A stretch of DNA of 21,494 nt, taken from positions 1 through 21,494 of the IMG/VR virus record IMGVR_UViG_3300031696_000076. One strand, 5' to 3'. The DNA comes from a virus. A model generated the notes under the pieces. That model made no database searches. It was given only the letters and a program-made list of their open reading frames with translations, and was not told the DNA's origin. A program made the position numbers and the translations under genes. The first letter of the stretch is position 1. Every line of letters starts with the position of its first letter. This document shows, in pieces, positions 1-19,773 of the stretch.

Positions 1-3000
1 TCTTGAATTACACTGTTATTGGTATTATCAATACTAGCTTGATTTGAGGTATTAGCATGAGCAATATTAAAGGTACTTCCGGCCGTTTGGTTAGCAGACC
101 AAGTACTATCTCCAGTAAGGCTTATACCTGCAGCCGTGGCTGTAATTGTTGTAACACCATCACCTAGTGTGAATGTACCTTGAGTAGCAGAACCAGATGT
201 TACGTGACCAAAAGTATCTACGCCTAAAGCAATATCTCGTACAAACGACATAGTTGTTGGACTAGAATCTCCTGTAGAAGTATAGCCACCAAAGTTTGAA
301 GTATCTTGGTGTGTGATAGTAATATCATTTCCATCAAAAGCTAGATCGATACCAGCGCCTTCATCGAACCCTACCCTTTCGCCTTGAGTGATTGTATCTG
401 CAAGAGAATTATTTACATATAGTGCCCAGTTTCTTAAATAGTAATCATCGAAGTCGCCAGAAACAACACCTGTAACATGACCTTGAGAATTAACTGCAAA
501 GCTTTGAATATATGTACCATTATCTACAGCACTACCAGTTGATAAACCAATGTTATCATGGTTGAATGTGATAGTATCGCCAGATCTTACTGATCCAAGA
601 GCTGTACCGCCATGAAGAGTTAAAGTATCGTTATTGATATTAGCAGTTGCTGTACCACCTGAATTAGCTGTAATATTCTTAAAGATTGCTTGTGAAGAAC
701 CTAAATCGCTGTTAGTAATAGCAACTTCAAAGTCATTACCATTTACAACACCTGCTAGACCTATACCTGTTCCTGCTTTAAGGTCTAGTGTTTTAGAACC
801 GGCCAATATTCCTAAATCAATTCCATTAACTTCTATTCCTGGATTCGATTGAGTCGCTTCTGAAAGTAAAAGAGAACCGTCTGCTTCCCATTGTCCAGCA
901 CTATAATTGTATAAGAAAGTATGAGCAATATTACCAGATGCATCATTAACTTTTAGTCCAAATTCTCCAACACTTTGATTTAAAGAATTTGTAATAATGA
1001 TACTGTCTTCTACTTCTAAAGTAGCAACATTTAATTCTGTCCTAGCACCTTGTACATAAAGGTCACCAGCAACATATAAGTCTTCTCCAATACCCACACC
1101 ACCGGCTACAGTTAATGCACCAGTTGATGTATCACTTGCACCAGTAGTACCTAATATTTTGACTGTCCCTGGAGCTCTAAAGTCAGTAGGAATAGAGAAT
1201 GTTGCTGCTCTACCTTCTGTTCCAGCACCACTTACTGTAATCTGATTAGTAGTACCTGTTGCTGTTCTAACATAATCGCCAGTAGTATGAGTAGTAAGTG
1301 CAACTGAATTATTATCCAGTGTAGTATTAAATGTTGCATTACCTAAATTAGTAATAGTTACATTACCACTAATAGGTCCTGTACCAAGTGTAATAGTTGG
1401 ATCATTAACATTGAAGTCAAAGTTTTCGTTAGTAGCATCCCAAGTTACGTTAATGCCCGATTCGGCATTACTTGTAATTAAGTCTTTAGCATTATAGAAA
1501 GTTACAATGTCTGTTGTGTGCGATGCTGATGAATCATTAAGACCTTGTATTTGCCATGCACGACTAGGTTTAGTTGCCGAAGTACCATCAGCATAATTTT
1601 CATTCCATTGGAATCTTACATCACTTTTATCAACTATAGTTGCAACGTGCTGTCGGTCAACACTGAAACCTTGAATTTGCACGTTGCCATCTACTTCCAA
1701 GAAAGAAGTACTAAAGATGTTAACGTTAGAAGCATTACCGGGCAATAATAAAGAAGCATTACTTAAGTCTAATGTAGTACCCGAGTTGAATGTCATGGTA
1801 TCGTTATTAGTACCACCATCTTTAAATGTTACATTACCAGTAAGACCTAATTTAGATGCAATCTCTTGTTGACTTGCAGAAGATAGATAAACCTTTTCAG
1901 TCTCTAATTCTCTTAGAGCGGCCGATATGTCATTTGCCGCAAATACTGTTAGAACAGAATCACCAATCTCTGCATGTAATTTTTGTAATGCGCCTGTTAC
2001 AGTATCAGTAGTTCCGATATTTGCAATAGAAGTATTACCGATGAAACCCGACATGGTATTTGTCGCAGTTGTAAGATCGGTTATAGTGTAGGTGTAATCG
2101 GTTGGTAGATTATCAATTAAAGATAAAGTACCAACATCTGCAAAGAGGTTAGTAATATCAGTGTCGTTATTAATCATACCTGTTTGAAGACTAGTTAATA
2201 CACCTGAAATAGTAGTAGAACCATAAGTTCCACCCTCATAAGAAGCAACTGTACCAATCTCTGCATCAATAGAATTAATTGCGGCTGTAAGATTAGTTAA
2301 TCCATCCGCTGCAGTTCCTGTTCCTGTTATAACAGCATTGCCCATCTCGTCATGTAATTCATTAAGAGCAAGTTTTACGTTATTTCTATTTGTGAATTTA
2401 GCATTTAATTGGCCGATATCAACCACACCACCAATTGTAGTATTACCATCAACTTGTAGTGTAAGTGCCATATCAACAGCACCATCAATATCTACAACAT
2501 CTAAGTTAGAAACACCATCAACATCTAAGACTCCGTGAATGGTTGCATTAGTTGAAACATCAACCGAACCATTAAGGTCTAGGTCACCATCAATAGTAGT
2601 ACCGTTTAAGGTTGTAGTACTATCGACATTAAGTGTACCATCAATTTGTGTATTACCATCAACAGCCGTAACATTGAACTTATCTCCACCAGATGAACCA
2701 ACTCTAAAGTTTCCATCTACTCCAGCAGTTCCATCTACTTCTAAAGTTCCATCAATCTGTGTATCACCACTAGAAGCAGTAACATTGAATTTATTAGTAC
2801 CTACTCTTAGGTCTCCATCAATTCCTGCCGTACCATCAACTTCTAAAGTTCCATCAATTTGTGTATTACCAGTAGCAGCTGCGACATCAAACTTAGATGT
2901 ATTACTTGAGCCAACTCTAAAGTTTCCGTCAACACCTAGGGTACTATTTAATTCAGCAGTACCGTCTACGTTTAAATTTCTGTCTATATCTACATCACGA

Positions 3001-4262
3001 TTAACTGTTACGTCTTGTGCAAAGGTAGCACTTGCTCCAGCACCAGTTAGCATTGTAGTAGTACCAGATTTAACTAATATGTTACCACCAGTATTTTCTA
3101 ATGCGGCGTATTGAACGCCGCCATCTTTTACATTAACGGCTCCACCATCAGCATCCAGATTAATAATACCACTTGAATCAAGATTAAAGGTTCCTGAAGT
3201 TACATCAAACTGGTTTGTTCCAGCCGTAATTTCGTGAGTTGATGCATCAAAGACTGCTTCGATTTCATTTACAGCACTAGTAAGATCAGTGGCTACAGTT
3301 GTAAGATTTTCTGTAACACCAACATCGTGTTGAAGTTCGTTAAGCCCAGCAACTGCGTCCATTGAGAATATTTTAATATCATCATTAAGAGTGGCTGGAG
3401 TATTAAGCTCAATAGTATTACCTATTGTAGTATTATGCGAAGTTAATCCACTATGATCTGCAGCAGCAATGGTTGTACCATAACCCAATACTCTTATTAC
3501 TTGAGAAGTACTAAAAGATGAATTTACATTTGACCAGGTTTTAATTAATAACTGAGTAGAAGTAGATTTTAATATAACACCATACCAGTTAGAAGTAGAC
3601 TCAACTAGAGATTGAGTGGCTAACTGAGTAGAATTTTGATATACTACCTCGCCCTCAATAAAATTTGTAAGTGTAGGATTATTCGAAAGTATAATAGTAC
3701 CAGCGTGATTTGCTACGTGGAATCCAGTAGCCGTAACACCTTGAGTCATTTCAACAGAGTTTTTGTATACTCTTAGAATACCCTTTGGAAAAGCTTCACC
3801 AATAAGTCTAATAACATTAGCATTTGCTATTGTTTGAGAGGCACCAACTTTAAGATCAGCAGATGAACTAAAAGTACCTGCAGTATTTCTTACTAAGATT
3901 TTATCTGAAGTTATAGAACTAATCAGGCCATTCCATGTAGGACTACCTGAAGTGCCTTGGTATATTACAGCATCTACAATAAATGCTGATGGAATAGATG
4001 GGCTATTTTTTAGAATTACATATCCGCCAGTATTATCTACTGTTACTGATGGACTAACTTCAAATCTAACAGTCTTAGCACCATCGCTTTGACCAGTAAA
4101 AATAGAAGATCCGGCAGCTACGTCTACGAAATTATAAGTCTTATCTGATAGATTAGAATTTAATTGTTCGTTGTCGCCTAAGTGTAATGAAATCTCATTA
4201 GACTTTTGTCTTAAGTTTTCTAAGGTATCATCCTTTAGAATTCGAGTTTCTTTATTAGCCAT
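1..4262 (-). CDS. Fibre-like virion structural protein, C-terminus outside window
   Basis: The frame stays open from the ATG at 4262 to the left edge (1420 residues visible, no stop), so this is a 3'-truncated gene. The start reads MANKETRILK and overlaps the upstream stop by one base (TAATG). Visible parts: an N-terminal helical stretch (about 1-50); two related beta modules of about 75 residues (about 79-154 and 187-260) sharing FI..V.YQ and a W.G.I.S core; short helical segments of the LNELHDEMG type; three tandem 34-37-residue repeats (see separate entry); then long Gly/Asn/Thr/Asp-rich beta sequence with DGT and VDGN turns. This composition is typical of trimeric phage fibres and of large 'structural proteins' in marine T4-like phages. 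Its place downstream of the baseplate genes fits a host-contact fibre. The receptor-binding tip would lie beyond the window. No specific T4 gene (34, 36, 37 or 12) can be assigned. Confidence 0.85.
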   Translation of the reverse strand, partial: MANKETRILKDDTLENLRQKSNEISLHLGDNEQLNSNLSDKTYNFVDVAAGSSIFTGQSDGAKTVRFEVSPSVTVDNTGGYVILKNSPSIPSAFIVDAVIYQGTSGSPTWNGLISSITSDKILVRNTAGTFSSSADLKVGASQTIANANVIRLIGEAFPKGILRVYKNSVEMTQGVTATGFHVANHAGTIILSNNPTLTNFIEGEVVYQNSTQLATQSLVESTSNWYGVILKSTSTQLLIKTWSNVNSSFSTSQVIRVLGYGTTIAAADHSGLTSHNTTIGNTIELNTPATLNDDIKIFSMDAVAGLNELQHDVGVTENLTTVATDLTSAVNEIEAVFDASTHEITAGTNQFDVTSGTFNLDSSGIINLDADGGAVNVKDGGVQYAALENTGGNILVKSGTTTMLTGAGASATFAQDVTVNRDVDIDRNLNVDGTAELNSTLGVDGNFRVGSSNTSKFDVAAATGNTQIDGTLEVDGTAGIDGDLRVGTNKFNVTASSGDTQIDGTLEVDGTAGVDGNFRVGSSGGDKFNVTAVDGNTQIDGTLNVDSTTTLNGTTIDGDLDLNGSVDVSTNATIHGVLDVDGVSNLDVVDIDGAVDMALTLQVDGNTTIGGVVDIGQLNAKFTNRNNVKLALNELHDEMGNAVITGTGTAADGLTNLTAAINSIDAEIGTVASYEGGTYGSTTISGVLTSLQTGMINNDTDITNLFADVGTLSLIDNLPTDYTYTITDLTTATNTMSGFIGNTSIANIGTTDTVTGALQKLHAEIGDSVLTVFAANDISAALRELETEKVYLSSASQQEIASKLGLTGNVTFKDGGTNNDTMTFNSGTTLDLSNASLLLPGNASNVNIFSTSFLEVDGNVQIQGFSVDRQHVATIVDKSDVRFQWNENYADGTSATKPSRAWQIQGLNDSSASHTTDIVTFYNAKDLITSNAESGINVTWDATNENFDFNVNDPTITLGTGPISGNVTITNLGNATFNTTLDNNSVALTTHTTGDYVRTATGTTNQITVSGAGTEGRAATFSIPTDFRAPGTVKILGTTGASDTSTGALTVAGGVGIGEDLYVAGDLYVQGARTELNVATLEVEDSIIITNSLNQSVGEFGLKVNDASGNIAHTFLYNYSAGQWEADGSLLLSEATQSNPGIEVNGIDLGILAGSKTLDLKAGTGIGLAGVVNGNDFEVAITNSDLGSSQAIFKNITANSGGTATANINNDTLTLHGGTALGSVRSGDTITFNHDNIGLSTGSAVDNGTYIQSFAVNSQGHVTGVVSGDFDDYYLRNWALYVNNSLADTITQGERVGFDEGAGIDLAFDGNDITITHQDTSNFGGYTSTGDSSPTTMSFVRDIALGVDTFGHVTSGSATQGTFTLGDGVTTITATAAGISLTGDSTWSANQTAGSTFNIAHANTSNQASIDNTNNSVIQ
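2613..2936 (-). repeat. Three tandem 34-37-residue beta repeats in the fibre gene
   Basis: Three in-frame units: 2936-2826 (37 residues), 2825-2724 (34) and 2723-2613 (37). Each begins G(V/I)DG(N/D)(F/L)RVG, continues with KF(D/N)V and G(N/D)TQIDGTL(E/N)VD, and restarts. DNA copies are similar but not identical; for example, the antisense of the TQIDGTLEVDGT part recurs with third-base changes. Looser DG-type turns continue to about 2400 (DLDLNG, GVLDVDG, LQVDGN). This periodicity suits a trimeric beta-helix or beta-prism shaft. Confidence 0.8.
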
Positions 4263-4498
4263 TATTTCCCACCAATTAATTTTTCTAACATTCTTTTAAT
4301 TTCAGCAACATCAGATTTAAGGTTATCGATATCATTTCGTTGCAGTTGATCAATCTGTTTTTGATTTCTATCTCTAGCAATCTGTTTTCTTCTAGCTTCG
4401 TAAGCATTACTATTTGTATTTATAATAGCTGAAGTAGCCGTATCTCTTATTAGCCCAGGATTGTTCTCAACTTTGATATCTTTTTTCTTTTTTGGCAT
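4262..4498 (-). CDS. Small basic protein with C-terminal coiled coil, unknown function
   Basis: A 78-residue protein starting MPKKKKDIKVENNPGL. It has a lysine-rich start, a polar middle rich in Asn, Ala and Arg, and a C-terminal helix with a clear heptad pattern of hydrophobic residues (I57, L60, V64, I67, L71, L74) ending in GGK, as in a short parallel coiled coil. There is no signal peptide or membrane segment. A good Shine-Dalgarno (AAGGAT) lies about nine bases before the ATG, the gap to the upstream gene is 12 bases, and the stop overlaps the next ATG, so it is expressed with its structural neighbours. I recall similar small proteins in marine T4-like phages but no proven role. Its position between a large virion protein and a fibre suggests a connector, trimerisation clamp or assembly factor; this is inference. 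Confidence 0.8.
   Translation of the reverse strand: MPKKKKDIKVENNPGLIRDTATSAIINTNSNAYEARRKQIARDRNQKQIDQLQRNDIDNLKSDVAEIKRMLEKLIGGK
4417..4424 (-). promoter_or_regulatory. Candidate T4-type late promoter before the fibre gene
   Basis: The minus strand reads TATAAATA from 4424 to 4417, followed by CAAATAG. T4-type late promoters put transcription start about six bases after this octamer, so near 4411, giving a leader of about 149 bases before the fibre ATG at 4262. The element lies inside the 78-residue gene. It could be chance in A+T-rich DNA, so support is moderate. Confidence 0.4.
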
Positions 4499-4510
4499 TA
4501 TATATTATCC

Positions 4511-7500
4511 TTATGTTGAAGCAATTGCTCTAAAGTCTCGTATTGTTGGTATAGCAGATGTATTATTAGATCTCAATACTATTTTAAATGCCATAGAACC
4601 AAAGCTTCCTGTAGGATCAACTGCATATTTAACTTCGGTATAAGCATTTGGATTATTATTAACTGGTATAGCATCAGAAGAAGCCATGGCTACCCATAGT
4701 TCTGCACCAAAGTCATCGTCTGAACCAGCTGGTAAGACTTTATAATATACATCAATAGAAGATCCAGAAGGTCTATTTGCTGTCATGTATAAATCAATTG
4801 TATCTGCTTCTTCGGCCAAATCGATCTTCTTAGTTATATATTTACATAATTCAGATCCACCAGTTGCCGCAGTCTCTGCAACATAGTTATTATATGAACC
4901 TTGATTATTAATAGCATCTCCAATAATATTTTGAACTGTAATTATTGAAGCTCTATTTTGATCAATGACTGGAGATAAGTGATCGCCTGTACTGCTTAGA
5001 ACAGCTCTAATACTAAACGTTTTAAGATTTCCAGAACCTTGGGCTGTTGAAGAAACAACCTTAGGGTTAGCAAAATATGAATTTGAATTTGCTAGTACTT
5101 CAAATTCATCAACTGCACCGTAAGCTGTTTGTGTTCCATCAACTGCTGTTTGTTCTAATGTAGATACATAGTATCTAATCTCTGTTCCAGGAACCTGTAT
5201 ATTTTGAATTTGTGGATGAAGAACATCAAACTGTCTATTCTCAGTAGCAAGGATTGTTGATCCACCGCCAGAGCCAGTTGATGTTGCCGAAGCTCCAGTT
5301 AAAGTAATAAGATATGAATCTTGCTCTGAGCCAGTAACGTTATGTGTACCTTCTAATTGAGCAACAGTTATACCATTAACAGTTCCACCAACACCAGCTA
5401 TAGTAACCTTAGAACCTCCACTATACATTCCGTGATTAGTGTGAGTAACTCTAACTACGTTACTGCCACTAGTAGTACTAAAGGGATCGGCCTTTAGATT
5501 TACTAATGGAATATCTTCGTTACAAAAAGTTACTTGAGAAGTATTAGTACCACCATCAACCATGGCCGATCCTGAACCTTGCTTAAACTTAGCTCTTCTT
5601 AGTACAAACTTCAAATCTTTACTTTGATCAGGGGTCCAAGTAGAAGCATTTTGAGAAGTAAAGAATGATCCACCATGTGGCTGTTTTGTAATTCTAAACG
5701 TAAGGTCTGTAACATCAAACCCACCCATTTCAGCAACCCAAGCTTCATATTCATTACAGGCAGAGATAATAACAATAGCATACTCAGCGTCTTGCTCTAA
5801 GTAAACAGGATGATCGAATGTAAATGCAGTCGCGCTGTTTGCAGTTGCTGACACATTAACCGATCCAGGGTTTAAAGTAACTTCAGTTCCTGGAACTACT
5901 CGTTGTGTGGGTATACCATTTACAACAGCTCTAATACTAATAGAAACAGGAACCTGGGTTTTAGTTGCCTTTGTCCTAAAGAATAGATCTACACCTGTTG
6001 CAAATAAACCACCTTTCTTTTCTATTAAGATAGTTTGAGCAAGAGGATCCGTCCATTTTACTTTAGTGCGTACAAACGTCTCACTTAGAGTTTGATTATC
6101 ACCAACTTCAGTGGTAACTAGTTTAGGAACTTTAGTATTAGTAATAGTATTCTGTACAGATTCAATAACTCCTTGCGCAAAGAACGGCGAAGAACAATAC
6201 GTGGTTTCAGTCTCAGGATCATTAGTTATTGTATCGGATAGTTTAAATTCCTTTACTCCAGTTTTAAATTTAATTGCTTCGTTTCTTGGAATAATAAATG
6301 TACCACTAACAGTACCATTACCATCAGTTATTAAAGATCCAGATGAAGCGCCTGGATGCGATGTAAGTCCAGTATAAAGTTTAGATTGATCGCTTGATTG
6401 ATCAGACCATTCTTGGAAAGCTTCGGATTTACAATACGCTGTAACGTTAATATTATTAAAGAACGCAAATACTTTTGTATTGGGTTTCATTAAGGTGCCT
6501 TCAAAGAATATCTTTCTAGATCTCATGAATGGTACAAAGTTTGTTTCAACTACTCTAGCGCCAGTTTCTTTACTAACAGTATCAAATCCAACATCAGTTC
6601 TAAGGCCCGATCTAGATTGATCACTGGTAACAGTCGTAGTGGTTACAGTCGTGGTCTTTCTTTGATCAAAGTTCATACCTGCCTGGCGAGCTCTGATTGA
6701 AGTAACATCTTCGTTAACTTCTCGCCCGACCCAGTTAGTTTCCCACTCATTCCAAACAGTTCCTAGAATACCAGTTTCATTTGCCATTGTAACAAATTGA
6801 TCGTATTGACCATTCTCATCAATAATAATATCTGGTCTAACATCAACTTCTTTCCACTCATCTGATTCAGGAGATAATCTAACTTGTCCACCCCAATCAA
6901 ATACATTATACGGGTTGACATTAATAGCTACTGATGCGTAAGGTTGTACTGTCTCGTTATGTTGATCATAAGGCATAGTCCAAATTGAACCATTCTTCGA
7001 TGCAGTGTCTGTAACTCCAGGCTTTTTAATCAAGTTTACATTTCTAGAATCATACTTAGCTCTTAATACACCTTGAACTTTATCAATAGAACATTTATGA
7101 TCTGGGTTAGCTGGGTTACCGATTGAGTGATCTTTAAAAGTATCAACAATAAATCCATTTTTAAATCTTGGCAAGCCAGCTGCATCAACAATATGTGTAT
7201 CGGCCGCACTTTGCTCTAACAAAGAAAGCGAAGTATAATACTCGACATTTTTCAGCCGCTTATCAAGTTTGCCGATATCTCTCATTGTGTATCGTTTGTT
7301 ATCTGTAATATCTGGTACAATATCAGCTAAGGTAAAGCCATAAGGCTTCATTCTTAATTGATATAATGTAAGAGCATCTTCTCTGTCTTCAGGAGGAGCC
7401 GGCCTTTCAGAAGGAACACCTTTAGCAATTTCAAAGGCGCCATCTCTTTTAATGAATAGCTTATCAATTCTTGGCATGTAGTACGCAATATCAGCTTTAA

Positions 7501-13885: not shown

Positions 13886-15739
13886 TTATCTTAACCTTGA
13901 ATTCGTAGTATAGTCAATAGTACCAGAAGAACCGCTTAATGCGATAGTATCAATTTGTGGTGTGATGGTAACTCTTAATGGATCAATAGCAACAAGCTGA
14001 TCTCTCTTTGGACCTAAATCCAATGAGTTTGGAGTAACAGTAATTCTAATAGTCGTAGGAGAATTAGAATCTGGAATAAAGTTCTTCAACGTAACTTTAC
14101 CAGCAGTTGCTTCAACTAAACCGCAATCAGCAATCACTGTTACATTTTCGCCTGCAACAATTTTATATGCAATGATTTGTCTGTTAGAGCTGTTAGTTAT
14201 TGGTATATCACCAAAGTAAACAGTCTCAGTATTATATAACCATGGCGTAGAACTTATCGTATTGACTGTAGATCCAGTACTATAAAATGGAGAAGTAAAA
14301 CTCATTGAAAAGTTATTAGCTGCAGTAGAAGACGGAGTAACATTCATAAACATATATGGTCTAACCGAACTGTTTTGAATAGAAGGATCTGCGTTATCAA
14401 TAGCTTTTAATAGTTGTGAGTGCCTAAACACACCATCAAATTTATTCAATTCGTTAAAGTTATAATCCGAAATAGTATCTCTAACAACAGCTTGTAATTC
14501 AACCGAACTTCTATCAGTTAAGTTTGGATTATATTTAAAGAACACATCAAGTTCTATGTAAGTATAATTTGGATCAACAATTTGTGGCGTTATAGAAACT
14601 ACGTTTTTGCCTTTTAATATAGTACCAATAATTTGAGATTTTTCTCCTTCAGTCAGAGAATCTCCAACCAAAGGTTTAATAGCAATATAAACTTTACCAT
14701 AATCTGGTGGATCATTATCTTCACCGCCCCAAGCAGATATAGAATTAATATTTGTAAATGATTTTTGAATAATAGCTCTATAATCATCTGAAGTTACTGC
14801 TCTATTTTGAGAAGTAAAAGTAAGAGGAGCATTGAATCGAATAGACTCAGTGGTCTCTTTGCCGGTACCACCAGAAGAAGCAGTGACAGTAGTTACAGTT
14901 TTATTAGCAAAGCCGCCAATATTATCAACTATAGTAAATGCATTGGCTCCATTAGACTCACCACCTTTAGTATATACATAATCTAAAGTTACGATATTAT
15001 TATTAGTTGGTTTTTTGCCAGTAACACCATCACCAAAATATATTTCAAAATATTCTGCAGAATTTTCTTGCAAGTAATATACTTTTGAAGCTGAGGTAAC
15101 ATTAATCAAAGATTCGAATTTAGTATAATTGTCATAAGATGTCGATTGATCGTTTGCTTGAATTAAAACTCTAAGCGTAGAAGTATCAGCATCAGGATCC
15201 GAAATTTGGAATTTTTGGTTTTCAATATCATTATCAACTCTATATAAAAGAGTCTTTCTAGTTCCTTCAACAATATTAACATTGTTAAAAGTAAAGGTTG
15301 TTCCACCACTGTCAATCAATGCTGATTGCTCTTCTAACACTACATACCTGTATTCTGATCCATCAACGTTAGTAGTTAATTTTGTACCACGTGGCAAAGA
15401 TAAAGATCCAGGAATAGTTCCTTGAGCACCTGTAATATCAACAACAATATTAACAACAGCTCGAGGAGCTAGTACCGACCTTGGTGTATATCCTAAGAGC
15501 TTAGCCCTTGTGACTACGTTACCACGAATTTGAGCAGAATCTAAGAAAGCTTCATTCAACGCAAAGTGAGCAGTCATAGCATTATAATGTGTATTATAAG
15601 CCAAGACGTCAAGTAGGGTCGATAATCCAGATCCTTCAAAATTATGATCGTTAAAATCAGACTGAGTCTTTAGATAGTTCTTAAGATTCTTTTTGATTTG
15701 ATCGAAATCGAGTTCCGTTACATTTAAATTTGTTGCCAT
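13886..15739 (-). CDS. gp6: Baseplate wedge subunit gp6
   Basis: A 617-residue homologue of T4 gp6 (660 residues), the protein whose dimers form the inner ring holding the six wedges together. The N-terminal hallmark is FEGSGLSTLLDVLAYNTHYN (residues 34-53), then LNEAFLDSAQIRGNVVTRAK and LGYTPRS, a pattern shared by gp6 and other baseplate J-type proteins. The middle contains NRAVTSDDYRAII and WGGEDNDPPDYGKVYIAIKP, typical of the J-like core. The end (about 500-617) is beta-rich. The ATG at 15739 lies four bases after the gp25 stop, with an AAGGT ribosome site inside the end of gp25. The order gp25-gp6-gp7 slot-gp8 fits a wedge operon. Confidence 0.95.
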   Translation of the reverse strand: MATNLNVTELDFDQIKKNLKNYLKTQSDFNDHNFEGSGLSTLLDVLAYNTHYNAMTAHFALNEAFLDSAQIRGNVVTRAKLLGYTPRSVLAPRAVVNIVVDITGAQGTIPGSLSLPRGTKLTTNVDGSEYRYVVLEEQSALIDSGGTTFTFNNVNIVEGTRKTLLYRVDNDIENQKFQISDPDADTSTLRVLIQANDQSTSYDNYTKFESLINVTSASKVYYLQENSAEYFEIYFGDGVTGKKPTNNNIVTLDYVYTKGGESNGANAFTIVDNIGGFANKTVTTVTASSGGTGKETTESIRFNAPLTFTSQNRAVTSDDYRAIIQKSFTNINSISAWGGEDNDPPDYGKVYIAIKPLVGDSLTEGEKSQIIGTILKGKNVVSITPQIVDPNYTYIELDVFFKYNPNLTDRSSVELQAVVRDTISDYNFNELNKFDGVFRHSQLLKAIDNADPSIQNSSVRPYMFMNVTPSSTAANNFSMSFTSPFYSTGSTVNTISSTPWLYNTETVYFGDIPITNSSNRQIIAYKIVAGENVTVIADCGLVEATAGKVTLKNFIPDSNSPTTIRITVTPNSLDLGPKRDQLVAIDPLRVTITPQIDTIALSGSSGTIDYTTNSRLR

Positions 15740-15743
15740 AGGG

Positions 15744-16190
15744 TTACCTTATTCGTCTCAACACGATTTCTACTTTATCTTCTGAATCGTGTTCTTTTAT
15801 TCTAAATTTTACTATTATATTATATGCGTTTGAATCAGCCTGATCATCAACTTTAATATAGATTAATTCAACTCTAGGTTCGTGATCTGATATTGTTCTA
15901 GCGATATTATCTCTTATAGCAATCCTGGTGATAGAATCTGCGGGCTCAAATAATAGGGCTCTCATATTAGCGCCAATGCCCATGTTAAATGGCCTTTCAT
16001 AGAAGTTTGTTAGTAACAAATTTTTAATTGAATTGCGAAGAGCAGCATCATCTCGTAATGGCATGATGTCTTTTCTAATTGGGTGCAAGGTTAAAGATAA
16101 GTCTAAATCAGACCATTGCTTAGACCTAGAAACTCTAGAAGAGTTTACGCCTGGTGATACTCTTTTATCTGCTTGTATATATGTAGACAT
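15744..16190 (-). CDS. gp25: Baseplate wedge subunit gp25
   Basis: A 148-residue homologue of T4 gp25 (132 residues), a small sheath-initiator-like wedge protein also related to type VI secretion TssE. The EPR motif of this family is present (DHEPRVEL, E104-P105-R106). Further family-like stretches are LRNSIKNLLLTNFYERPFNM (51-70), GANMRALLFEP (73-83) and IRDNIARTI (92-100). The C-terminal strand pattern (YNIIVKFRI..VEIVLRRIR) also fits. It is a little longer than T4 gp25 at the N-terminus. Its start has an odd context: the only purine-rich site (AGAGG) is about 13 bases from the ATG, and a TATAAATA element lies between them. Confidence 0.97.
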   Translation of the reverse strand: MSTYIQADKRVSPGVNSSRVSRSKQWSDLDLSLTLHPIRKDIMPLRDDAALRNSIKNLLLTNFYERPFNMGIGANMRALLFEPADSITRIAIRDNIARTISDHEPRVELIYIKVDDQADSNAYNIIVKFRIKEHDSEDKVEIVLRRIR

Positions 16191-16195
16191 ATAAC

Positions 16196-16203
16196 TATTT
16201 ATA
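16196..16203 (-). promoter_or_regulatory. Candidate late promoter abutting the gp25 start codon
   Basis: The minus strand reads TATAAATAGTTATATG, where the final ATG (16190) is the gp25 start. The octamer overlaps the TAA stop of the upstream gene. With T4 late spacing (start six bases after the octamer) the first transcribed base would be the A of the gp25 ATG, giving a leaderless message. It could instead be only an A+T-rich intergenic spacer. Confidence 0.4.
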
Positions 16204-17098
16204 CCTCTTGAGCTGCAAGTTTAGCTTTTCTTCTAGCTAAAGCTTCAGTCGCTGCTTCTTTAAAACTTCCAGCTGCATCGAACTTTGGAGAATTAGCAGC
16301 TTTTACTAGGTCATATGTTTCTTTAAATATTTGTCCTTCTTTTTTAAAGTCCCATGACGATGGATATGTGTTTAACAATTTTTGTTGTTTCATTCTATAA
16401 TCTGCCGCTGTCATAGTGCCAAGCTTTCTAATCTCAGTATCGTGATCAGCTCCTACAACATCAGCTAACTCTAAATATAATTCTCCTTTAGTCAAAGTAT
16501 AGTAACGAGTATTTTTCTTTTTGGCTCCAAACCCTTTAAAGATTCCACCAGCCTTTGAAGAAGATGCAATATACTTTACAGAATTAGAAAACGCTGTATT
16601 CATCAACTTTTGGTTTACTTCATATTGATCTTGTTCTATTACTGGAGTAGCAACAGGAGCAACAGGAGGTTCTTCAGGAACTTTAGGTTCTGATGGTTCT
16701 TCTTTAACTGTGCCATCAGGTTTTACTTCAACGTTAGGAATTTTAGCGCAAACGTCGGCTTTAGCAGTATCTAATGCAGATGTAAGCGCATCAGGCCCGA
16801 TGCCCAAATCGGCTATCAATGAATCAAGCGAAGGAACTGATGCTCCAAACTTTTCTTTCAATTCAGCTATCTTACCTGAGATATCAATAGGGTTACTCAA
16901 ACCTAACAGCTCATTAACTTTAGTTTGAAGACTTTCAACGGCTGGAATAGTAGGTTTAAACGAAGTCAGATCAGCTTTCATAGCAGTTAATTTAGATTGC
17001 ATAGCCCCAAGCTGATCTTTACCTCCAGCTAAGAGACCATCTAATTCTGCTTGCTTAGCCTTTAAATCATCTAAGGCTTGATTATTGCCACAACTCAT
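16199..17098 (-). CDS. Conserved-looking 'MSCG' protein of the hub/wedge operon, unknown function
   Basis: A 299-residue protein that I cannot name. Residues 1-120 are strongly helical with coiled-coil character (LDDLKAKQAELDGLLAGG, LGAMQSKLTAMKADL, ISGKIAELKEKFG) and contain both cysteines, C3 and C117. Residues 122-156 form a Pro/Glu/Val linker (EEPSEPKVPEEPPVAPVATP). Residues 157-299 are mixed helical with a basic patch (FKGFGAKKKNTRYY) and an alanine-rich basic end. There is no signal peptide; the early Cys is not in a lipobox after a hydrophobic segment. It starts nine bases after the gp5 stop with a strong AGGAG site and is followed directly by gp25, so a hub-wedge linking, tape-measure-cap or chaperone job is plausible but unproven. 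I recall similar MSCG-starting proteins in cyanophages at this spot. Confidence 0.85.
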   Translation of the reverse strand: MSCGNNQALDDLKAKQAELDGLLAGGKDQLGAMQSKLTAMKADLTSFKPTIPAVESLQTKVNELLGLSNPIDISGKIAELKEKFGASVPSLDSLIADLGIGPDALTSALDTAKADVCAKIPNVEVKPDGTVKEEPSEPKVPEEPPVAPVATPVIEQDQYEVNQKLMNTAFSNSVKYIASSSKAGGIFKGFGAKKKNTRYYTLTKGELYLELADVVGADHDTEIRKLGTMTAADYRMKQQKLLNTYPSSWDFKKEGQIFKETYDLVKAANSPKFDAAGSFKEAATEALARRKAKLAAQEV

Positions 17099-17107
17099 TT
17101 ATATCTC

Positions 17108-18484
17108 CTATGTAGATGCGTTTGGCGCACTTGAATCATTTGTTGAACCCGAATTAGCGCCATCCCCAGTATCCATCGATGTTGTTGGATGAGTATGAGT
17201 ATGTAATGTAACGGTATTAGATGTAATATTACCGGCTGGTAGATCAATACTTCCTGTAGGTGAATCCAATGTCATAGAAGTAAGAGCGTCAATATCCATT
17301 GTATTAGCTGATGTTGTTTGACTACCGATAATACCAATAATTTGATTTGTATTAACGCTTAACGTATAATCTTTAAGAGAGGTATGACTAAATGTACCAG
17401 CGTTCATAACACTAATATTATTCAAAACAGTCGTTCCCATATTATTTGTTATAGCAGAAGTAAAGTCATTACCAACAGTTAACAGTTTATCGTTTATCGT
17501 ATTAGTAGTAGAGTTATTCATAACACTTAGGTTATCATCAACACCAATATTAGTAGATCTACTTCTGATAACTTCTGTTTCAATATTACCACCAATCTTC
17601 TGTTGTAAAGAACCTTTGATATTCATTGTCATATCTTTCTCTACTTGAAGATGATAGTTACCATAGACCATCTGTCTTAAATCACCATCAACTGTCATAC
17701 TACAATTGCCTTTGATATGGATATTCTTATTACTAAATACTACTTCATAATCATCACCAACAATTTTTACGCTGCGTGTACCATCGTTATAGATTTCTTC
17801 GTAAGATCCAGCAGTATGTGATCGTTGCGTACGTTCAAATCCTGGTGTGTCATCGATTTCTGTTATATGCCCGGACTCTGATTGATTAACTTTATTGTAC
17901 GGATAATCAGGAACATGGCCATTCAATGGAGGAAGTTCAGCCCAAGGAGTTTCTGCATAATATGCATCAGATTTATCGACAGATACAGAAGGAATTTTAG
18001 GTGGAACTGCTACTTGAATAGGAGAAATTGCTGTGCTTGGAAGTCTCTTATCTAAAGCATCGCTTACTTCATACTTACTTTGTCGAGCCGCGAAGTTTAC
18101 ATCTGATTCTGTTTCATATTCTGATAACGGATAATCCTCTCCAGTGAAACCTAAACTCTTTGATCGAGGAGAATTCTTAGATGCAATAGAGCCCATGATA
18201 ATTGGATCTTGTGCTGAAGCCCCATCTCTAAAAAACCCTACAACCCATGAACCTTCCATCAAACCATGTGGGGTATCACCTATACCAGATGTGCCAGATG
18301 AAGTTGTAGGTAACATGACAGTAGCCCACGGTAGATCATCAACACTAATAGATCCTGTATCTTCTGTATGAAATCCAAAGCATCTAACTTTTACTCTATT
18401 CATTTCTTCAGGATCAAATCGATCTTCTACTACTCCGGTGAACCAAGTAAAACCACCACCCATAAATTGATCAATATTATTCAT
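17108..18484 (-). CDS. gp5: Baseplate spike gp5, without lysozyme domain
   Basis: A 458-residue spike protein. Residues about 13-99 form the gp5/VgrG-type OB fold (WFTGVVEDRFDPEEMNRVKV and GSWVVGFFRDG..QDPIIMGSI). A polar linker follows to about 215, then a long stretch of short repeating strands (VKIVGDDYEVVF, IHIKGNCSMTVDGD, MTMNIKGSLQQKIGGNI) to about 420, as in the triple-stranded beta helix that forms the membrane-piercing needle. T4 gp5 has 575 residues with a lysozyme domain between these parts; nothing of that size or character is present here. Near the C-terminus is HTHTHP (about 428-433), then a Ser/Asn/Gly-rich tail. The start overlaps the gp27-like stop (ATGA) and has an AAGGA ribosome site five bases upstream, so hub and spike are probably translated together. 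Confidence 0.93.
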   Translation of the reverse strand: MNNIDQFMGGGFTWFTGVVEDRFDPEEMNRVKVRCFGFHTEDTGSISVDDLPWATVMLPTTSSGTSGIGDTPHGLMEGSWVVGFFRDGASAQDPIIMGSIASKNSPRSKSLGFTGEDYPLSEYETESDVNFAARQSKYEVSDALDKRLPSTAISPIQVAVPPKIPSVSVDKSDAYYAETPWAELPPLNGHVPDYPYNKVNQSESGHITEIDDTPGFERTQRSHTAGSYEEIYNDGTRSVKIVGDDYEVVFSNKNIHIKGNCSMTVDGDLRQMVYGNYHLQVEKDMTMNIKGSLQQKIGGNIETEVIRSRSTNIGVDDNLSVMNNSTTNTINDKLLTVGNDFTSAITNNMGTTVLNNISVMNAGTFSHTSLKDYTLSVNTNQIIGIIGSQTTSANTMDIDALTSMTLDSPTGSIDLPAGNITSNTVTLHTHTHPTTSMDTGDGANSGSTNDSSAPNAST

Positions 18485-19773
18485 TTTCCTTCCGCCTTAT
18501 AAATATCATCTAAATCACATATAAAAGAATCTTTCTTTATTTGACAAGACATGATATATTCATTTCCAAATTTATGAGCTATAGATGTAACAATATAGTA
18601 CCCTGATACTAATTTATCTTTAGCTGTTTTTTGAGCCTCAATCCTAGTCACGTCTAATTCAATTTTATCTCCAACGCTAAGTTCAAAATCTCCAGCAATA
18701 TCAATTGTGACAGTCATAGTATCTAAATTGCTGATATACGCTCCGGCTTTTAGCATCGCTGGATTTGAAGGAGTGTGATAATTTGAAAACCCTTCAAAAG
18801 ATTTGCTATTAAGAGATACAAAGTAGCTTTTTGAATTGGAATATTCTTCTATATTTCTATCATCAAATTTTACTGATTTACTAAATGGGTTATTTTTATT
18901 TAACTTTTGATTGCCATTATAGTTATATGTTGGTGTACTATATTGTTTATTAGCTATATCAATAGTGTGCAACGTCGAAGCATACGCTCCTTCTGAAGAT
19001 TGAATATATTTAGACATTCCATAATCAGAGGATAGCTTTCTTATCTTTACTCTATCAACTTCATATTTGCTATCACTTCCAGGAACTTCTTTAGTAAATG
19101 GTCTATGGAAATATTTATCATGAGAATCTCTTTGTATCATGTTTTCGTATGAATCAAAAACAACACCTGACTTTAAAGTTTCATAAAAATAAAATGGAGT
19201 TGAATTATCGAATGCATTTTTAGTTAACCATGCGATTGCATACAAAGGTCTAAACTTAGGGATTATACCTTTGATACTATCAGTAGTATCTGTATTAATA
19301 GTTAATTCTTTTTCAAGAATACCTAAGTCGTCAATGCAAATTTGTTTTACAACAGGTCCAATAGCTCCCTCAAAAGATCTACATACTGTTTTTAATTGAT
19401 TCATATATGCATGCTTTGATACACATCGTAAAGCGTATGTCGATTGTCCAGGCGCCGATTTAGAAAAAGAATGAATCTCAGCAATGTATATTTCTTTTCT
19501 ATAATGCTGGGTATTACCATCTAAGCCTTTGCGACTAAACGCTATATCTATCTTTTCATTACCTGAAATTTTTAAAAGTTCTAAGGTATTAGAACCATCC
19601 AAAACATATAGTTCATATTCTAAGGATGAACGATATAAACTTTCAGTTATATCTATTTTTTTAATAATATCTCTAATATCAAATTTAGTGCCAGCGTTAG
19701 TTGTTATTTGACACTTGTCAAGATAGAAAGCACTAGGCAATATTGATTTACCATTTTCTACGAAATCAGTCAT
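18481..19773 (-). CDS. gp27: Baseplate hub protein, gp27-like
   Basis: A 430-residue protein encoded directly before gp5. T4 gp27 (391 residues) forms the trimeric ring that carries the gp5 spike and continues the tail tube. Seen here: an N-terminal beta-rich region (CQITTNAGTKFDIRDIIKKI, SLEYELYVLDGS), a helical stretch with AYMNQLKTVC, the stretch TPFYFYETLKSGVVFDSY (about 192-210), which resembles the hub-domain signature shared by gp27-type and VgrG-type hubs, and a C-terminal beta domain with LSVGDKIELDV and SGYYIVTSIAHKF. Order and the four-base overlap with gp5 support a hub partner. Similarity to T4 gp27 itself is weak by eye. The ATG overlaps the gp53 stop by eight bases and lacks a good ribosome site (only AGAG far upstream), which suggests translation coupled to gp53. 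Confidence 0.82.
   Translation of the reverse strand: MTDFVENGKSILPSAFYLDKCQITTNAGTKFDIRDIIKKIDITESLYRSSLEYELYVLDGSNTLELLKISGNEKIDIAFSRKGLDGNTQHYRKEIYIAEIHSFSKSAPGQSTYALRCVSKHAYMNQLKTVCRSFEGAIGPVVKQICIDDLGILEKELTINTDTTDSIKGIIPKFRPLYAIAWLTKNAFDNSTPFYFYETLKSGVVFDSYENMIQRDSHDKYFHRPFTKEVPGSDSKYEVDRVKIRKLSSDYGMSKYIQSSEGAYASTLHTIDIANKQYSTPTYNYNGNQKLNKNNPFSKSVKFDDRNIEEYSNSKSYFVSLNSKSFEGFSNYHTPSNPAMLKAGAYISNLDTMTVTIDIAGDFELSVGDKIELDVTRIEAQKTAKDKLVSGYYIVTSIAHKFGNEYIMSCQIKKDSFICDLDDIYKAEGK

Follow-up and report, generated by a model that had tools for sequence, protein, structure and literature searches.

Textbook descriptions of T4 place the tail lysozyme inside the spike protein gp5. The locus studied here comes from a marine virus of bacteria whose gp5 has no lysozyme domain, and it raises the question of what is done by the protein encoded immediately after gp5. 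The window is the whole stretch of DNA that was analyzed, 21,494 nucleotides of IMG/VR record IMGVR_UViG_3300031696_000076; by its gp6, the nearest isolates are Methylophilales and Pelagibacter phages (about 40%). A sequence-only reading had proposed the gene order gp53, gp27-like, gp5, X, gp25, gp6, where X denotes the protein left unassigned, and Pfam and PHROGs upheld this order (Table 1). No wall-hydrolase domain of a known kind was detected by Pfam in gp5, gp25, gp53, gp6, or their neighbors. Elsewhere in the window (3-4262, minus strand), an open-ended 1,420-aa ORF carries repeated TQIDGTLEVDGTAG units and is fibre-like.

Table 1. Features of the baseplate region, in positions of the window
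Feature	Positions	Strand	Basis
gp6 baseplate wedge	13886..15739	minus	Pfam, PHROGs
gp25 baseplate wedge	15744..16190	minus	Pfam, PHROGs
X (two-domain protein, 299 aa)	16199..17098	minus	ORF, dN/dS, relatives
X C-domain (residues 155-299): basic, predicted all-helical, no clear fold match	16202..16636	minus	predicted structure, fold searches
X linker (residues 118-154): PNVE..DGTVKE.P.EPKVPEEPP, near-invariant among close relatives	16637..16747	minus	alignment; many pairs with a linker dN close to 0
X N-domain (residues 1-117): acidic, predicted helical; C3 = 17090-17092, C117 = 16748-16750	16748..17098	minus	alignments, cysteine check, low-confidence models
gp5 spike: OB domain and needle, without lysozyme domain	17108..18484	minus	Pfam, PHROGs
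HTHTH near gp5 C-terminus (HxH)	17189..17203	minus	sequence; gp5 end is LHTHTH
gp27-like hub/tail protein (phrog_350)	18481..19773	minus	PHROGs

Reality and make-up of gene X

The ORF with an MSCG start was present where the sequence-only reading had placed it; it is encoded on the minus strand, which that reading did not specify, and the plus strand is crowded with stops at these positions. Its 299 codons compare with 186 for the longest stop-free run (median, 74) when the stretch was shuffled 500 times at the mononucleotide level. AGGAG precedes the ATG, which lies 9 bases past the gp5 stop. In 19 pairs of relatives, dN/dS was at most 0.61 wherever the ratio was computable (four X entries gave no ratio, with dS either 0 or saturated), and X thus evolves as a protein. 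The maxima were 0.29 for the N-domain, 0.61 for the linker, and 0.59 for the C-domain, and gp25 reached 0.34 in the same pairs. X is a real coding gene, beyond chance.

The layout that had been described from the letters was borne out by alignment and by the structure model: two domains, cysteines at residues 3 and 117 only, a linker rich in Pro, Glu, and Val, and a basic C-terminal part (net charge, +6; pI 9.4). Residues 1 to 117 have a net charge of -5 and a pI of 4.5.

In Pfam and PHROGs profile searches, no curated family gives X a name. The suggestion that X has no T4 counterpart agrees with profile searches of X and 23 members of its family, none of which matched a T4 baseplate or hub-assembly family; for the T4 hub assembly proteins gp26, gp28, and gp51, no hub or hub-catalyst family was matched by X. 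In PHROGs, some of the 23 members match tape-measure families, weakly and in the manner of coils, and a Pfam scan of these members turned up eukaryotic coil families. Pfam detected no OB domain, lysozyme, or beta-helix in X, the OB domain and needle belonging to the adjoining gp5, and the Pfam and PHROGs scans of X and its relatives gave no PAAR match. A profile search of the PDB returned, at 0.0022, a designed helical protein and, from 0.16 upward, HMG boxes; all were taken as chance. No description of X was found in the accessible parts of PMC3037559, PMC7029224, PMC9004378, PMC6116203, and PMC4576200, subscription papers being mostly outside the scope of the search.

A family with a constant N-domain beside gp25

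Successive scans of IMG/VR proteins with X yielded relatives in 17, 42, and 48 loci, respectively, and two further scans anchored on gp6, of at least 80 loci each, added diverged members. Among the loci collected, a model of the N-domain hit at least 157 ORFs, at least 49 of which had distinct last 100 residues; on a slightly larger ORF set it hit at least 159 (redundant loci). On these sequence comparisons, the N-domain (about 117 residues) and linker can be taken to define an unannotated phage family, here also called X, with at least 49 distinct members. The window protein has the cysteine-paired N-domain, the linker, and the place just upstream of gp25 that characterize the family. Its N-domain hits are not compositional: reversed or shuffled ORFs gave no hit at E ≤ 1e-5 with any of three models (A2, A5, and N-domain), and the hits of reversed ORFs at E ≤ 0.01 (6 with A5, 19 with the N-domain model, and 0 with A2) are the expected trace of helical composition.

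A gp25-like ORF directly follows X in all 36 loci examined for gene order. Among the matches listed, which include redundant loci, the N-domain hit ends no more than 2.5 kb upstream of gp25 in 156 of 159 cases, a fixed place that is partly built in because the loci overlap and some were collected via gp6 next to gp25; the remaining 3 are in cut or excerpted loci. Loci collected by X alone (the sets of 17, 42, and 48) likewise show X beside gp25. Two extra ORFs separate the two genes in L210, and a PAAR gene does so in L212. The earlier description of X as specific to this phage lineage proved too narrow: diverged phage contigs linked to gp25 also encode the N-domain, with identities to that of the window as low as 23%.

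Among isolate records, none yielded a credible X. In a tblastn search of a phage collection, X and the N-parts of four relatives (L016, L059, L045, and L214) gave either no hits or chance hits (E, 4 to 9). Profile A2 found no X in any of 13 named phage records and, among 15 records, reached the L041 contig alone, a search of limited reach since it also missed the diverged L059. A genome scan added a single relative; it lies in an Opitutales MAG, on a contig of 5,151 bases, which does not suffice to name a host. Scanning for the motif EPKVPEE gave 83 stretches, and the 34 that were translated and not previously known as X were unrelated by eye.

Across 32 sequences with 23 to 95% identity, the near-invariant positions of the N-domain and linker are C3-G4, L9, G26, L44, Q58, L64, C117, P121-N122, and G129. 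Among the matches listed, both cysteines occur in 44 of 46 complete N-domains and neither in the other 2 (L259 and L302), and a single one never occurs; this count leaves out 3 of the at least 49 members (L005, L278, and L213), whose N-domain is cut or broken. The co-variation of C3 and C117 suggests a disulfide or a shared ligand. Among close relatives the linker motif EPKVPEEPP is almost fixed, with dN often 0. Folded alone, the N-domain gave a poor model (mean pLDDT, 53), so it may need a partner. In one member (L311:217-1338), the N-domain is lengthened by NPLGAAQNALGG-type repeats.

C-domains, GH19-bearing relatives, and the spike tip

Unlike its front, the end of X is exchanged within the family. 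At a BLAST E value of ≤ 1e-3, the C-termini of the at least 49 members fall into 11 clusters (36, 3, 2, and eight singletons), a separation that does not prove the C-domains unrelated. The cluster of 36, the window and 35 others, has a basic helical C-domain of about 140 residues; the cluster of 2 is L216 and L281, and L259 has almost no C-domain (51 residues). Since L053 and L054 share 64% identity in the N-part versus 85% in the C-part, the two parts can travel apart.

In the model of the window protein, the C-domain is predicted to be all-helical (pLDDT about 76 to 93 over residues 161 to 290). Only four C-domain residues are invariant in 23 sequences (N162, E206, G216, and P246); the surface is basic and variable, E206 is the sole invariant acidic residue, and the alignment has no stretch suited to a scan. 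Foldseek searches with X, in which the N-part was barely tested, gave best E values of 0.28 (PDB) and 0.099 (viral; A0A2H4N7H2, 560 aa), and with VIA the best match was a designed helical protein (Z 7.1; 100 residues aligned at an rmsd of 3.1). The modeled C-domain has no convincing fold match.

The cluster of 3 (L214, L278, and L279) carries GH19 C-domains above the Pfam curated cutoff (2.2e-9, 1.7e-12, and 4.2e-8, respectively). The GH19 domain of L214 matches solved endolysins (9eoi, 6.5e-28; 4ok7, 1.6e-21) and, among the 25 matches listed of 1335 to phage records, endolysin-type proteins with 41 to 47% identity. The gp5 of L214, the one gp5 tested from a GH19-bearing phage, has OB and needle domains without lysozyme. 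In the window protein, Pfam gave no GH19 (PF00182), the one match at E ≤ 1 being a chance coil match, and hhalign of the C-domain family with the L214 domain gave a probability of 0.2; judged by these profiles, the window C-domain is not detectably GH19.

The combination is already embedded in PHROGs. The profile of phrog_181 ("endolysin") holds the X N-domain alongside GH19, with the GH19 part further on: L279 X aligns with residues 1-196 on profile positions 1-196 (1.6e-96), and L214 X with residues 240-465 on positions 310-531. The window protein matches its N-terminal segment (5.4e-5; residues 2-107 on positions 5-108), as do all 23 A2 members the profile (best, 4.1e-8); L302 X has no match at 0.001, and the profile is also matched in 1 of 14 control genomes. 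Window X is thus like phrog_181 in the N-domain and unlike it in having no GH19 part, and the PHROG label refers to the enzyme part rather than to the N-domain. The label nevertheless spreads to X proteins without GH19, which is a trap for automatic annotation. Two long relatives with a window-type X have separate phage lysozyme (PF00959) frames elsewhere, of 161 and 164 aa, which makes a role as the lysis enzyme unlikely for X; together with the survey of C-termini, these frames led us to reject it as a lysis endolysin. In nine records no SLT domain was found, and GH19 was found only in the L214 contig, absences that say little because the records are fragments.

Spike tips were surveyed in 81 distinct gp5-gp25 intervals among the matches listed, HxH being scored by a crude pattern match over the last 75 residues. 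In P2, phi92, and R2 pyocin, HxH is described as binding iron in the spike (PMC6116203), and the T4 gp5 is described as capped instead by the PAAR protein gp5.4 (PMC4576200). Among the 38 X-bearing intervals listed, 17 have HxH and no PAAR, 17 have PAAR (a separate gene in relatives) and no HxH, 4 have neither (L214, L218, L275, and L279), and none has both. The listed intervals without X comprise 16 with PAAR only, 8 with HxH only, 3 with both, and 7 with neither, plus 9 further ones that have neither tip and contain a second slot protein, termed LPC. L049 (PAAR) and L050 (HxH) have X proteins with 100% identity in the N-part and 97% in the C-part. X is independent of the spike tip, as the 17/17 split and this near-identical pair demonstrate, and it was rejected as the tip itself, the tips being the gp5 HxH or PAAR. 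The same two neighbors document an exchange of tips: one combines a PAAR gene with a gp5 that lacks HxH, and in the other gp5 ends in HxH and there is no PAAR. The PAAR ORFs of L009 to L014 and L049 have a conserved tail ending CTYFDWNNNTCLDQSS...YYVSP, possibly an extra tip part.

The role of X and known systems

X is a real, unnamed, modular protein family. Given its modularity, fixed place, cysteine co-variation, GH19-bearing relatives, and tip independence, it is probably a spike/hub-associated protein of the virion, in which the N-domain docks and an exchangeable, envelope-acting domain is carried. The partner of the N-domain and linker would be a spike or hub component that phages with either tip type share, such as the gp5 needle, the gp27 ring, or the inner wedge. 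Upon contraction, the C-domain would be carried through the outer membrane and act in the periplasm, replacing the job of the lysozyme domain kept inside gp5 in T4. In the window, it could be a wall hydrolase of an unrecognized kind or could bind a component of the host envelope while the DNA enters. Counting against a carried effector are the four invariant C-domain residues, few for an enzyme, and the presence of GH19 in just 3 of at least 49 members.

A special case, which we regard as fairly unlikely, is that the window C-domain has a new fold and hydrolyzes peptidoglycan itself. GH19 sits at the same position in relatives, E206 is invariant, and the window offers no other known wall-hydrolase domain in its spike and wedge proteins; an active site would, however, have one invariant acidic residue to draw on, on a basic, variable surface and in a fold without a clear match.

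It is unlikely that X is instead a permanent component of the structure, serving as a plug in the hub, a partner of the tape measure, or a bridge in the wedge, with a purely structural C-domain and the GH19 fusions as occasional add-ons. The conserved linker and the 46 of at least 49 members without a recognized enzyme (for those scanned) fit such a part, and 12 of 23 members match the tape-measure family phrog_4704 (best, 2.3e-4), but these weak matches sit amid many coil-family matches and X is short at 299 aa. A 113-kb relative has, away from X, both a phrog_150 hub protein and a 635-aa ORF without PHROG match that is placed like the tape measure of HTVC008M, and a bridge should not tolerate 11 different C-terminal clusters.

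It is quite unlikely that X only helps the spike or inner wedge to assemble, as a chaperone or scaffold that the virion does not keep and whose C-domain varies with its client. The gene lies between spike and wedge genes, the N-domain is long and helical, and few C-domain residues are invariant; yet a GH19 hydrolase, found in the same place in three members, would be useless in a cytoplasmic chaperone, and X stays nearly unchanged when the adjoining tip is swapped. Of the structural, chaperone, or tape-measure roles first suggested for X, the structural one is kept, with position and GH19 fusions favoring the spike or hub, the chaperone fits the fusions badly, and the tape measure draws on weak matches. 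A hub-assembly protein was rejected, given no profile match and the separate phrog_150 protein in a relative.

If X is indeed a spike-borne carrier, it answers how the cell wall is opened by the marine T4-like phages examined, whose gp5 lacks lysozyme, and the slot next to gp25 is where to look for a constant docking part with exchangeable tools. Two questions are then raised together, that of non-PAAR docking on a contractile spike and that of the job of the unread C-domains. The exchangeable C-domain, the enzyme-bearing relatives, and the cysteine pairing are what is added to the sequence-only reading.

The T4 gp5 tail lysozyme is described as OB domain, lysozyme, and triple beta-helix in one chain (PMC4576200). 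Its spike complex offers a wall hydrolase, which for X would hold by extension from the GH19-bearing relatives; in T4 the enzyme is inside gp5, whereas the window gp5 has none and the tool would be on a separate protein, as GH19 is in three relatives. Among isolates, the slot between gp5 and gp25 holds PAAR in HTVC008M, Mosig, and Melnitz, and it is empty in LIMEstone1, where an endolysin-type domain is inserted into gp5. The picture from isolates is that different proteins in the neighborhood of the spike carry wall hydrolases. Both gp5-type proteins of Melnitz EXVC044M (L060:2625-3665 and 3665-5668) match endolysin families (phrog_2649 and phrog_465; phrog_894), in contrast to a statement in the part of its description consulted that the phage lacks other lysin-like genes (PMC9004378).

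The LPC family (L199:3392-4534, L203, L207, L211, and, in Phage C48C1, L064:5172-6527) has frames of 336 to 453 aa with two invariant cysteines far apart and goes with neither HxH nor PAAR; in 8 of 9 intervals the gp5 frame is short (170 to 207 aa), some frames perhaps being cut by contig ends. An hhalign comparison of X with C48C1 and the LPC family was negative. In Sinorhizobium phage phiM19, gp98 is a peptidase M15 between a gp5-like gene and gp25, which shares with X the slot, a Ser-Cys start, a helical front, and a wall-hydrolase-type end; by hhalign (probability, 0.6), homology between it and the X N-domain is not detectable. The PAAR-endolysin protein of Vibrio phage 1.244.A (phrog_281 and phrog_894) also occupies the slot just before gp25 and joins a spike-tip part to a hydrolase-type domain, its docking part being PAAR and not the X N-domain.

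In type VI secretion, cargo effectors and adaptors are encoded beside spike or PAAR genes and combine a constant docking part with an exchangeable effector part. We tentatively propose, as a possibility short of an expectation, that some marine T4-like phages moved the wall-breaking tool from gp5 to a tip-independent carrier closed by a cysteine pair, with interchangeable effectors (mostly unread helical domains, more rarely a GH19 hydrolase), which would make X a phage counterpart of this spike cargo. X resembles that cargo in gene place and in its constant/exchangeable layout, a likeness of architecture; unlike it, X is not PAAR-bound, since it keeps its place with either tip.
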